A DNA stretch of 64,000 bases, taken from NCBI RefSeq assembly GCF_900109575.1, contig NZ_FOAF01000001.1, positions 1,955,662-2,019,661 on the forward strand. The letters are read 5' to 3'. A program made the translations under genes and the position numbers. Positions 11,785-63,368 of the stretch are shown one piece after another. The first letter of the stretch is position 1, and every line of letters begins with the position of its first letter. The DNA is from Olivibacter domesticus. Lineage in GTDB: Bacteria; Bacteroidota; Bacteroidia; Sphingobacteriales; Sphingobacteriaceae. The notes beneath the pieces were generated by a model. The model was not told where the DNA came from and did no database searches. It worked only from the letters and a program-made list of their open reading frames with translations.

Positions 11785-12423
11785 TTAAGATTCTAGGTAA
11801 TACTGAAAAAGAGAAATAAACTTTCCAACATCTATTCCATCACATAAACCGTGATGAACATGAATAGATAAGGGCAAAAATAATTGACTTCCATGTGCTT
11901 GGTATCTACCAAACGTAATTTTTGGAATGCTGTCATCACCAATCGTATGTTGCGCATGTTGCATTTGACTAAAAGCCAGGTAAGGCATAACAGAATAATG
12001 TATGACATCCTTTTTATTACTATCTGTCTTCAATCCCTTTTTATTCTTTTCTTCATTTATCTTAATTTTGGCTGAGTCTTCAAATTCTCTAAATGTTTTA
12101 GCGTAGTTAAAATAAGCAAAGCCGAATGTCTCATCTGGTCTTAGTACTGTTATCGAGCCATCCACCTCTCCATACTCCAGTATCTCATTCCCTTCTATAC
12201 GTAATCTAAAGGCAGACAATTGATTAATAGCTTTTAAGGAATGATATAAATAATAATAAAAGAAAGAAATACCGTAAGTTTTGCAGTAATGGTACGATTT
12301 GGTACAGTTAATTTGAGTGCTTAACCCCCAAAAAGGAGCTTCAAATCCATGAAAAAATTCAAAGTGCTCTTTTCGCTTCCAACTTGTTTTATTCAGGATT
12401 AAGTATGAATTTTGTTTTTTCAT
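11785..12423 (-). CDS. cat: Chloramphenicol acetyltransferase (classical CAT fold)
   Basis: 212 residues, cytosolic, normal length for trimeric CAT. The catalytic signature HVHHGLCDG (188-196) holds the general-base His191 in HHxxxDG; the front WKRKEHFEFF and the substrate-side TFGFAYF/VMPYLAFSQ segments also match the family. It transfers acetyl from acetyl-CoA to chloramphenicol; some chromosomal Bacteroidota members may prefer other acceptors. A leader ORF within a hairpin lies immediately 5' (12433-12459). Divergent from an AraC regulator, convergent with the permease. No mobile-element genes flank it, so it is probably a resident chromosomal gene. Confidence 0.85.
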   Translation of the reverse strand: MKKQNSYLILNKTSWKRKEHFEFFHGFEAPFWGLSTQINCTKSYHYCKTYGISFFYYYLYHSLKAINQLSAFRLRIEGNEILEYGEVDGSITVLRPDETFGFAYFNYAKTFREFEDSAKIKINEEKNKKGLKTDSNKKDVIHYSVMPYLAFSQMQHAQHTIGDDSIPKITFGRYQAHGSQLFLPLSIHVHHGLCDGIDVGKFISLFQYYLES

Positions 12424-12432
12424 GCCGCAAAG

Positions 12433-12459
12433 CTATTCTTTCACTAAAGAAAGAATCAT
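12433..12459 (-). promoter_or_regulatory. Candidate cat leader peptide ORF inside a hairpin
   Basis: On the minus strand an ATG at 12459 opens an 8-codon ORF (MILSLVKE, stop TAG at 12435-12433) that ends 9 nt before the cat ATG. The same segment forms a perfect 8-bp inverted repeat, ATTCTTTC (12435-12442) / GAAAGAAT (12449-12456), loop ACTAAA. This is the geometry of translational attenuation known from inducible cat and cmlA genes, where a stalled ribosome opens a hairpin. The repeat could equally be an operator for the divergent AraC protein. Confidence 0.4.
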
Positions 12460-12496
12460 GCAGCAATGGATTATTAACTAGCAAAAAAGGATTTTT

Positions 12497-18918: not shown

Positions 18919-18990
18919 TAAAAAAAGCAAAAGCCCTGCTTTTTGGGATTGCAGAGCCTTTACCAAAATCAACCTAAACCTATAATTTTA
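18919..18990 (-). terminator. Minus-strand terminator hairpin with conserved leader (element A)
   Basis: The 366-bp gap 18728-19093 holds no gene. On the minus strand, arms GGCTCTGC / GCAGGGC (one mismatch) are followed by a T-rich tail at 18919-18930, which fits termination of the GH172 transcript. The 5' flank AGGTTTAGGTTGATTTTGGTAAAGG resembles the flank of the hairpins at 62405 and 63267. I see no promoter upstream of this copy. Confidence 0.55.
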
Positions 18991-19093
18991 AACAGTTCTT
19001 TGTTTTTTTTGTTTTATCTATTTCTATTTTTATAGGAATCGAAAGACACGCCATCTTCTTTGAGAAATATTAATAAAGATGAGAAACGAATTG

Positions 19094-61660: not shown

Positions 61661-61765
61661 GAAAATAGTTGAATAGGTAAATCGTGAAATTTAAAGCTAG
61701 TTTTAGGGTGTGATCATTAATTTCGGCCACTCCAATAACTAATAACCAACAACAAATAACCAAAA

Positions 61766-62347
61766 TCATGGCCTCATAAAGCCCAATCCAAATGCTGTAC
61801 CAGCACCTAACACAGCTCCAACAGCAACATCAGAGGGGTTATGCACACCCAAATACATTCTTGAATACCCTACGGAACCGGCCCAAATGAAAGAAGGAGC
61901 TATTACATACCATTTCGGATAAGCATGCGATAAAGCTGTTGCCGTACTAAATGATGCGGATGTGTGCCCTGACGGAAAAGAATAACTAGTTGGTTCATAT
62001 ACTGCTTTAAATCCGATGTGGGCAATGAAAGGTCTTGGGCGCTTAAATATTTTTTTGAGCGCAAAATTCAGTAAGGCTGTAGTGGCAGTACTACTTGCGA
62101 CATAAGCAGCGTTCTGACGCATTCCTTTATTACCATCTATAGCTCCAGCTACAAAAAGTCCAATTGGAATGGCAGCATTGACATAATTATTAGCATCAGA
62201 GATAACCCGCATAACCTTGGTTTGTTGCATGGTACGTTTTGCAGCTAAACTTTCTAAAATCCTTAAATCTATTTTGTCTATCGCAGATTGTGCATCTACA
62301 GTGTTATAAGTGAAAAGAATAAGGATAAAGGCCCAGACTTTCATCAA
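61766..62347 (-). CDS. PAP2-family phosphatase, secreted
   Basis: 193 residues with a signal peptide (cleavage near TVDAQ). All three PAP2 motifs: KKIFKRPRPF, SFPSGHT and SRMYLGVHNPSD (catalytic His pair). Hydrophobic segments about 60-80, 92-105 and 150-190 suggest a small membrane-associated lipid phosphatase (undecaprenyl-pyrophosphate, phosphatidate or lipid A phosphate). Lies downstream of the yceI gene on the same strand, separated by element B. Confidence 0.85.
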   Translation of the reverse strand: MMKVWAFILILFTYNTVDAQSAIDKIDLRILESLAAKRTMQQTKVMRVISDANNYVNAAIPIGLFVAGAIDGNKGMRQNAAYVASSTATTALLNFALKKIFKRPRPFIAHIGFKAVYEPTSYSFPSGHTSASFSTATALSHAYPKWYVIAPSFIWAGSVGYSRMYLGVHNPSDVAVGAVLGAGTAFGLGFMRP

Positions 62348-62404: not shown

Positions 62405-62520
62405 TAAAAAAAGGTCTTCAATCGGTGAAATTGAAGACCTTTAGCTAAGCAATTATAAAGCTAAATTATGACCTAACGATCATTTATAAAAATGCTGAGA
62501 CAAAATAATTTATAATTATC
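62405..62520 (-). ncRNA. Hairpin element B, second copy of sRNA-like element
   Basis: On the minus strand: hairpin arms AAAGGTCTTCAAT / ATTGAAGACCTTT followed by seven T, preceded by CATAATTTAGCTTTATAATT, almost the same as element C on the other side of yceI. The -33 TTTG is kept, but the -7 region is GATCGTTA instead of TATCTTTG, so this copy may have lost its promoter and serve as the yceI terminator. Confidence 0.45.
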
Positions 62521-63264: not shown

Positions 63265-63331
63265 ACAAAAAAGATCTTCAACCGGGGAGATTGAAGACCT
63301 TTAACTAACCAATTATAAACCTAAATTATGA
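63265..63331 (-). ncRNA. Candidate small RNA, element C
   Basis: Stand-alone unit between divergent genes: predicted start near 63331 from the promoter below, conserved CATAATTTAGGTTTATAATT, then a hairpin AAAGGTCTTCAA / TTGAAGATCTTT with a T-run at 63265-63272. Predicted length about 65 nt. No ORF of note. Also possible: an attenuator leader of yceI. Confidence 0.5.
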
Positions 63332-63336
63332 TGACA

Positions 63337-63368
63337 CAAAGATAGTGTACAAAAAACACTAAGACAAA
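63337..63368 (-). promoter_or_regulatory. Promoter of element C
   Basis: On the minus strand: TTTG (63368-63365), 20-bp spacer, TATCTTTG (63344-63337): exact match to the Bacteroidota TTTG-N19/20-TAnnTTTG consensus. Confidence 0.6.

Follow-up and report, generated by a model that had tools for sequence, protein, structure and literature searches.

We identified a predicted small RNA gene, here called element C, in a 64-kb stretch of the Olivibacter domesticus genome (hereafter "the window"). As certainly as sequence allows, C is a member of a small RNA family, and we interpret it as one gene of a multicopy family that would act in trans. On balance it is probable that an unpaired core shared by these RNAs pairs with mRNAs shortly before the start codon and blocks translation, its chief targets being SusC-type outer-membrane pores of polysaccharide-utilisation loci (PULs). 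Many copies under different promoters would then provide dosage, and several signals could silence the same set of pores.

The minus strand carries a promoter of the form TTTG-N20-TATCTTTG at 63337..63368. It is an exact match, as the preliminary description had reported, and with spacers of 18-22 nt it is the only one in the 64 kb, where 0.22 would be expected. This promoter type is called sigma-ABfr (PMC11697453). An imperfect palindrome over the promoter spacer, AGTGTACAAAAAACACT (63344..63360), has one mismatch to AGTGTA-N5-TACACT and is a candidate operator, and its frequency in the window is at chance level (3 matches when up to 2 mismatches are allowed, vs 1.9 expected). Between the promoter and the core stands TGTCA (minus strand). 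The predicted RNA, ~66 nt long, occupies 63266..63331 on the minus strand, based on a covariance model (94.3 bits), the fold and the alignment. Its 5′ end is placed from the promoter and its 3′ end from the terminator, and transcription is inferred to run from TATCTTTG through to the U tail. The proposed pairing region is the 27-nt core TCATAATTTAGGTTTATAATTGGTTAG (63305..63331, minus strand), which is unpaired in the predicted fold. In short form the core reads UCAUAAUUUAGGUUUAUAAUUGGUUAG and is followed by the terminator hairpin (63267..63302, minus strand), which has a 14-bp stem that covaries, a 5-nt loop (TCCCC) and a U tail. Folded alone, the RNA has a z-score of -2.9, and inclusion of the promoter region lowers this to -3.7. 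A second delimitation of the hairpin gave 63270-63302. Thus the T-tailed hairpin of the preliminary description is present, and so is the lack of a coding gene, as no ORF of at least 40 aa overlaps 63265-63368. Rfam gave no match at the gathering score anywhere in the window, and for C itself there were only five matches at E ≤ 10, all at chance level.

A BLASTN search of the source genome with the 251-base region around C recovered 20 places (E ≤ 7.7e-4). The covariance model built from these 20 copies (R1) found 23 places at E ≤ 1e-3, a number that rises to 27 if E ≤ 1 is allowed. The small RNA family proposed earlier from three copies holds, on the larger scale of about 20 dispersed copies. 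In 19 of the 20 aligned copies AGGTTTATAATTGG is kept, exactly or with one base changed, the exception being copy B, and most of the 17 invariant alignment columns fall within the core. Directly before the core, 14 of the 20 copies have the box TAnnTTTG, vs 0.36% of 20,000 random positions. Seven of these 14 also have an AGTGT-N-ACACT palindrome across the spacer, and a looser version of the pattern occurs at 28 of the 43 promoter-type loci of relatives. The 12-mer ATTATAAACCTA has 25 matches in the genome (reversed control, 5), 18 of them inside copies recognised by the model; three of the other seven are at ORF starts.

The claim that this is a small RNA family under selection at the RNA level is supported by the pattern of substitution in the hairpin. 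Among the 20 copies, double changes that keep pairing were found in 9 of 11 predicted pairs. In a larger set (109 matches from this genome and from named loci, 100 distinct sequences), 93.5% of cells are paired and all 11 modelled pairs show compensatory changes. Cells with double changes number 313, vs a mean of 84 after shuffling, and none of 500 shuffles reached this value. Sliding the structure by 1-3 columns lowers the score to 0.29 or less, vs 0.74 for the real structure. Fitting the 109-match alignment to the model favours the structure; the unfitted alignment of the 20 copies agrees with it. Constancy of the core in the named loci is partly a selection artefact, because these loci were retrieved with an exact 22-base pattern; the copies in the source genome are unaffected.

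That exact core pattern matched at least 117 stretches. Among the 80 matches listed were Sphingobacterium, Mucilaginibacter, Parapedobacter, Olivibacter, Rhinopithecimicrobium and the unclassified "bacterium A37T11". A covariance-model search over relatives, which the preliminary description had suggested, also recovered the family: R1 matched 20 of 25 genomes of the Sphingobacteriaceae and 0 of 16 other genomes of the class. A second model built from the 109 matches (R2) matched 114 of 151 Sphingobacteriaceae genomes, with 1-30 copies each, and 10 of the 11 family members in a sample of the phylum. Outside the family, R2 matched 11 of 384 genomes at E ≤ 0.01 (~3.8 expected), and these matches were weak and single. 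Inspected one by one, two of them (L172 and L173) look true and the others are doubtful or chance. L172 and L173, from one genus of another family, have a promoter, TTTTTTCATAATAGATTGGTTAGTTAAG and a terminator and are likely distant relatives beyond the Sphingobacteriaceae. At L183-L185 (genome G024) the core is a variant in which AATTGGTTAG/GGTTGGTTAG words are repeated, and the TCTCCCC loop is the same. For the weak relatives, Rfam returned tRNA alone at the gathering score, and the sub-threshold remainder was taken as chance.

To identify candidate targets, we compared the core with start regions using RNAduplex, with dinucleotide-shuffled cores as control and with genes and starts called by a crude script. 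UCAU was dropped from the core so that the AUG itself would not be scored. For 754 genes in loci that bear the small RNA (-41 to +30, ≤ -12 kcal/mol), 55 passed vs 26.8 ± 8.1 for shuffled cores, a value reached by 0 of 40 shuffles. The cut-off of -12 kcal/mol was fixed before a separate 400 kb of the source genome was tested, where 26 of 290 genes passed (7.8 ± 4.2 for shuffled cores; 0 of 60 shuffles reached this). The -120 window of this genome was also enriched (13 vs 5.0, 0 of 60 shuffles). Five of the 26 hits have TonB plug and CarboxypepD domains and three are AraC-type regulators; others include glycoside hydrolases, a SusD and a sugar transporter-like protein. SusC-like genes passed in 5 of 11 cases vs 20 of 268 other genes. 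The 11 had been collected by iterated search without regard to N-terminal extension, and SusD was excluded from the others. In the 754-gene set, 0 of 12 SusC-like genes passed.

Start regions were not enriched in the other genomes compared. In G540, from another genus and with 22 copies, 7 of 310 passed vs 5.7, in a sample that held one SusD-like gene and no SusC-like gene. Neither G460 (6/140 vs 3.7) nor G011 (4/157 vs 4.5) was significant, and since weak diverged copies were later found in both, they are not clean blanks. G095 (3/166 vs 3.0) and G072 (4/133 vs 2.7) were not significant either, and in these control genomes single distant windows stand out (G095 at -120 and G072 at +80, at a looser cut). 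As an individual gene, the MFS sugar transporter at L012:14798-16195 (minus strand), 3.8 kb from a copy, has first codons complementary to the core over ~19 nt (-21.7 kcal/mol) and is a strong single target candidate.

For SusC we assembled 40 of the best 53 scored TIGR04056 genes of the source genome (7 of the 53 scored were not fetched) together with the 11 earlier SusC-like genes, and split the set into 33 PUL-type genes and 18 with a long N-terminal extension. Of the 33 PUL-type SusC genes, 11 carry a stretch of 8 nt complementary to the core in the 50 nt before the start, vs 18 of the 268 others (p = 4.6e-5), and the matches centre 10-20 nt before the SusC start. Flanking windows at -160, -110, +10 and +60 do not separate SusC from the others (p ≥ 0.06), only 6 of 2000 shuffled cores reached the SusC fraction, and none of the 18 SusC genes with the N-terminal extension carries the complement upstream. 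A count of 6-mers in SusC start regions that was blind to the core ranked CTAACC, ACCTAA and TAACCA highest, all complementary to the core, and six of the top ten lie within the core complement (p = 0.0017).

These 6-mers and the restriction of the complementarity to the 50 nt before the start speak against a reading that we consider unlikely, though the best of the alternatives: that the small RNA family is real and its core is mainly a site for an RNA-binding protein, acting as a sponge, with the match to SusC secondary. In its favour, the core is constant over far more of its length than a pairing seed needs, it contains repeated UUAGG/UUGGUU words, and the sites in the source genome use both halves. 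The Bacteroides small RNAs FopS and GibS bind the protein RbpB (PMC11697453). Against it, we found no Hfq protein and no match to RRM_1 at E ≤ 0.001 in the source genome; the same RRM_1 search was positive in Bacteroides ihuae.

We also compared the leaders of SusC genes in G460, in which SusC genes with a long N-terminal extension (3 and 4) were likewise separated. ACCAATT occurs in 6 of 24 SusC leaders vs 0 of 126 others, and CCAATTT and CAACCAA are also favoured. From these leader words, AAAUUGGUUG would be expected in a G460 small RNA. An exact search of G460 with AAATTGGTTG gave 61 matches vs 43 for the control, a count that is uninformative, and a scan of 30 of the 61 sites for a following terminator gave nothing convincing. 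A sensitive model search returned one weak match, L397 (G460:C1:3006223-3006290, E = 0.019), which lies outside these 30. L397 reads ...AGTGTATTATTTACACTATCTTTGAGACATATTCATAATACATAAATTGGTTGTG, followed by a hairpin with AUCUCCCCGGU, and has the predicted AAAUUGGUUG core, a promoter and the same loop. Among held-out G460 SusC genes the result was marginal (4/16 vs 8/126; p = 0.03 for 7-mers and 0.06 for 8-mers). When cores were swapped in G460 using 8-mers, the source-genome core scored 8 of 24 and the G460 core 6, so there was no clean cross. Covariation of seed and target between species is thus suggestive only.

The G460 data bear in both directions on an alternative that we regard as rather improbable, in which the small RNA is real and has other RNAs as its true targets, and the apparent target signal stems from nucleotide composition, either that of Bacteroidota start regions or that of SusC leaders. 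Words resembling the core complement occur in SusC leaders of G460, a genome with only a weak diverged copy, and the negative result in G540 and the 0 of 12 SusC-like genes point the same way. Against this, dinucleotide-shuffled cores rarely attain the observed values, the A+T content of leaders is similar (0.72 for SusC, 0.70 for others), and the G460 words fit the variant core of G460. We retain translational control of SusC by core pairing as the preferred reading.

The genomic setting of the copies bears on whether C acts on its neighbour. C lies 159 nt upstream of a yceI-like gene and copy B (62405..62478, minus strand, 79.3 bits) 57 nt downstream of it, both co-stranded with the gene, as might be expected of a cis-acting leader, an attenuator or a plain terminator of yceI. 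Such a role is very improbable. A cis leader would keep a fixed orientation and distance to the downstream gene, and the next downstream gene is co-oriented with 10 of the 20 copies and opposed to the other 10; promoter and terminator are ~66 nt apart with nothing else between, and the neighbours vary from copy to copy. The dispersed, mostly intergenic copies (18 of 20 between called ORFs, two overlapping an ORF call) and their partial clustering within 20 kb could speak for a DNA repeat, mobile or REP-like, that has no function as RNA. This is hardly credible, given that promoter, core and covarying hairpin have been conserved together as one transcription unit, both flanks outside it mostly differ among copies, and the hairpin arms change with pairing kept.

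B had been described as a near-identical copy of C. This is true of its hairpin, which is intact; the core is changed at two G, and no TAnnTTTG box precedes it. As B begins 57 nt past the stop of the co-stranded yceI-like gene, any RNA made from it would be derived from the 3′ UTR. The missing promoter of B, the copy number (~20) and the probable targets had all been overlooked. Copy A (18924..18992, minus strand, 19.8 bits), also reported earlier as a diverged copy, is possibly a strongly diverged relative: its fold (z-score -2.7) and the sequence ATAGGTTTAGGTT, common to A and L396, a weak member in another genome (E = 0.007), favour this, and the E-value of 0.8 and the failure to see a promoter of the C type before it do not. 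In G001, from the same genus, a copy lies 177 nt from a relative of the gene at 61766-62344 with no yceI stretch between them, so the place predates the species. Copies occur within 5, 10 and 15 kb of SusC genes in 2, 6 and 10 of 20 cases (1.8, 2.9 and 3.9 at random), a comparison with self-chosen distances and a SusC list of the best 53 scored, on which we do not rely.

The closest counterpart among described RNAs is FopS, a family of paralogous small RNAs of Bacteroides thetaiotaomicron with 12-15 copies in Bacteroides, which represses SusC translation at the start codon and is counteracted by RbpB (PMC11697453). By that account, the family reported here resembles FopS in build, in its many paralogous copies (20-23) and in promoter type (TAnnTTTG in 14/20), and the complementarity enriched in SusC leaders of the source genome may reflect a similar repression. 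FopS comes from another order, Bacteroidales, and was compared by description; the Rfam models scanned gave C only chance-level matches at E ≤ 10. Forms linked to tRNAs do not figure in the FopS description consulted. Its partner RbpB is, per the same source, an RRM_1 protein, for which the source genome has no match. Given the lack of an RRM_1 or Hfq gene and of an Rfam link, we propose that the family works like FopS and do not say that it is FopS. GibS of Bacteroides is a single intergenic small RNA whose middle region is structured and which has two seeds (PMC7366714). It shares with the present family a conserved single-stranded 5′ part that pairs with translation-initiation regions and a 3′ terminator, and differs in being one RNA with other targets (PMC7366714). 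Structured RNA motifs of Bacteroidetes include 6S-flavo, Flavo-1 and Pedo-repair (Weinberg 2010; PMC2864571), all three from the same phylum and Pedo-repair from a genus of the Sphingobacteriaceae. None of these was matched in our Rfam scans, whose library holds the models by accession range.

Regulatory RNA in the phylum beyond Bacteroides is almost unstudied, and we found no paper on small RNAs of Sphingobacteriaceae in the open-licence literature. If our reading is true, control of SusC pores by multicopy small RNAs would be a general strategy of Bacteroidota, with or without RbpB, and the word linking seed to leader would allow simple target prediction from genomes.

We sorted 119 cores in 117 named loci by simple pattern and found 43 of the promoter type, 38 with GTCTTYT and a longer leader, and 27 behind a sequence resembling a tRNA T arm. 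The remaining 11 include two with a near-promoter box. The tRNA-linked cores are mostly from Mucilaginibacter and follow the order TGTAGGA...GGTTCGACTCCTTCTCCTACAG, CTCTTCT and core. Rfam called a tRNA before the core at L167 (69 bits), L188 (58.5 bits) and L054 (32.9 bits; cut-off 29). ARAGORN reported no tRNA at 13 tRNA-linked loci among 22 scanned, nor in 12 that were cut out. Its silence where Rfam calls one suggests tRNAs of an unusual kind, or genes that only resemble tRNAs. In L054, inspected by eye, the variable arm is long, the loop UUGUCGC gives the anticodon GUC, and the anticodon stem contains a mismatch. A type-II tRNA-like gene with the GUC loop (by eye), the anticodon-stem mismatch and a G at the discriminator place is conserved in Mucilaginibacter ~120 nt before the core and fused to the small RNA, at L054, L076, L081, L085, L091, L096, L100, L117, L128, L131, L132 and L133. 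At L122, before 4815 on the minus strand, a promoter comes first, then a reduced tRNA-like element consisting of just an acceptor-like stem and a T arm, and directly after it the core. The inspected matches in two small genomes, G013 and G009, also lie behind tRNA-like ends. C itself has its own promoter and no tRNA.

That the same core is found after a promoter, after a hairpin leader and after a tRNA marks core plus terminator as the functional unit. The three 5′ architectures would be short genes with their own promoter and a common operator, longer RNAs with a hairpin leader, and trailers behind tRNAs or behind type-II tRNA-like genes. The core may be freed from tRNA or tRNA-like transcripts as their 3′ trailer in Mucilaginibacter and some small genomes, and we propose this tRNA-linked biogenesis in relatives as a new twist. 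3'ETS-leuZ of E. coli is a small RNA from a tRNA trailer that acts with Hfq as a sponge of small RNAs. The tRNA-linked copies would resemble it by analogy, as regulatory RNAs cut from the 3′ part of a tRNA precursor, and differ in that the same core also occurs in stand-alone, promoter-driven genes. If this is correct, they would be a rare example of one small RNA made both via its own promoter and by tRNA processing. More tentatively, there may be an RNA code across the family for silencing nutrient pores, in which a nearly invariant single-stranded cassette, produced with at least three 5′ architectures, pairs with a complementary word in SusC leaders that drifts along with it (as in G460). 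Such a code would be a counterpart of FopS independent of Hfq and RRM, with tRNA-like 5′ domains as maturation devices.

Two further repeated sequences were observed. At L009:3920-4105, L012:3904-4088 and 12284-12469, and L014:3947-4131, a word like TGTCATGCTTATCTCA stands upstream of the promoter and is possibly a second regulator site. An AC-rich stretch of ~30 bases, CCAATAACTAATAACCAACAACAAATAACCAA, at 61732-61766 of the window recurs at many places in the source genome and in G001 and is another dispersed repeat.
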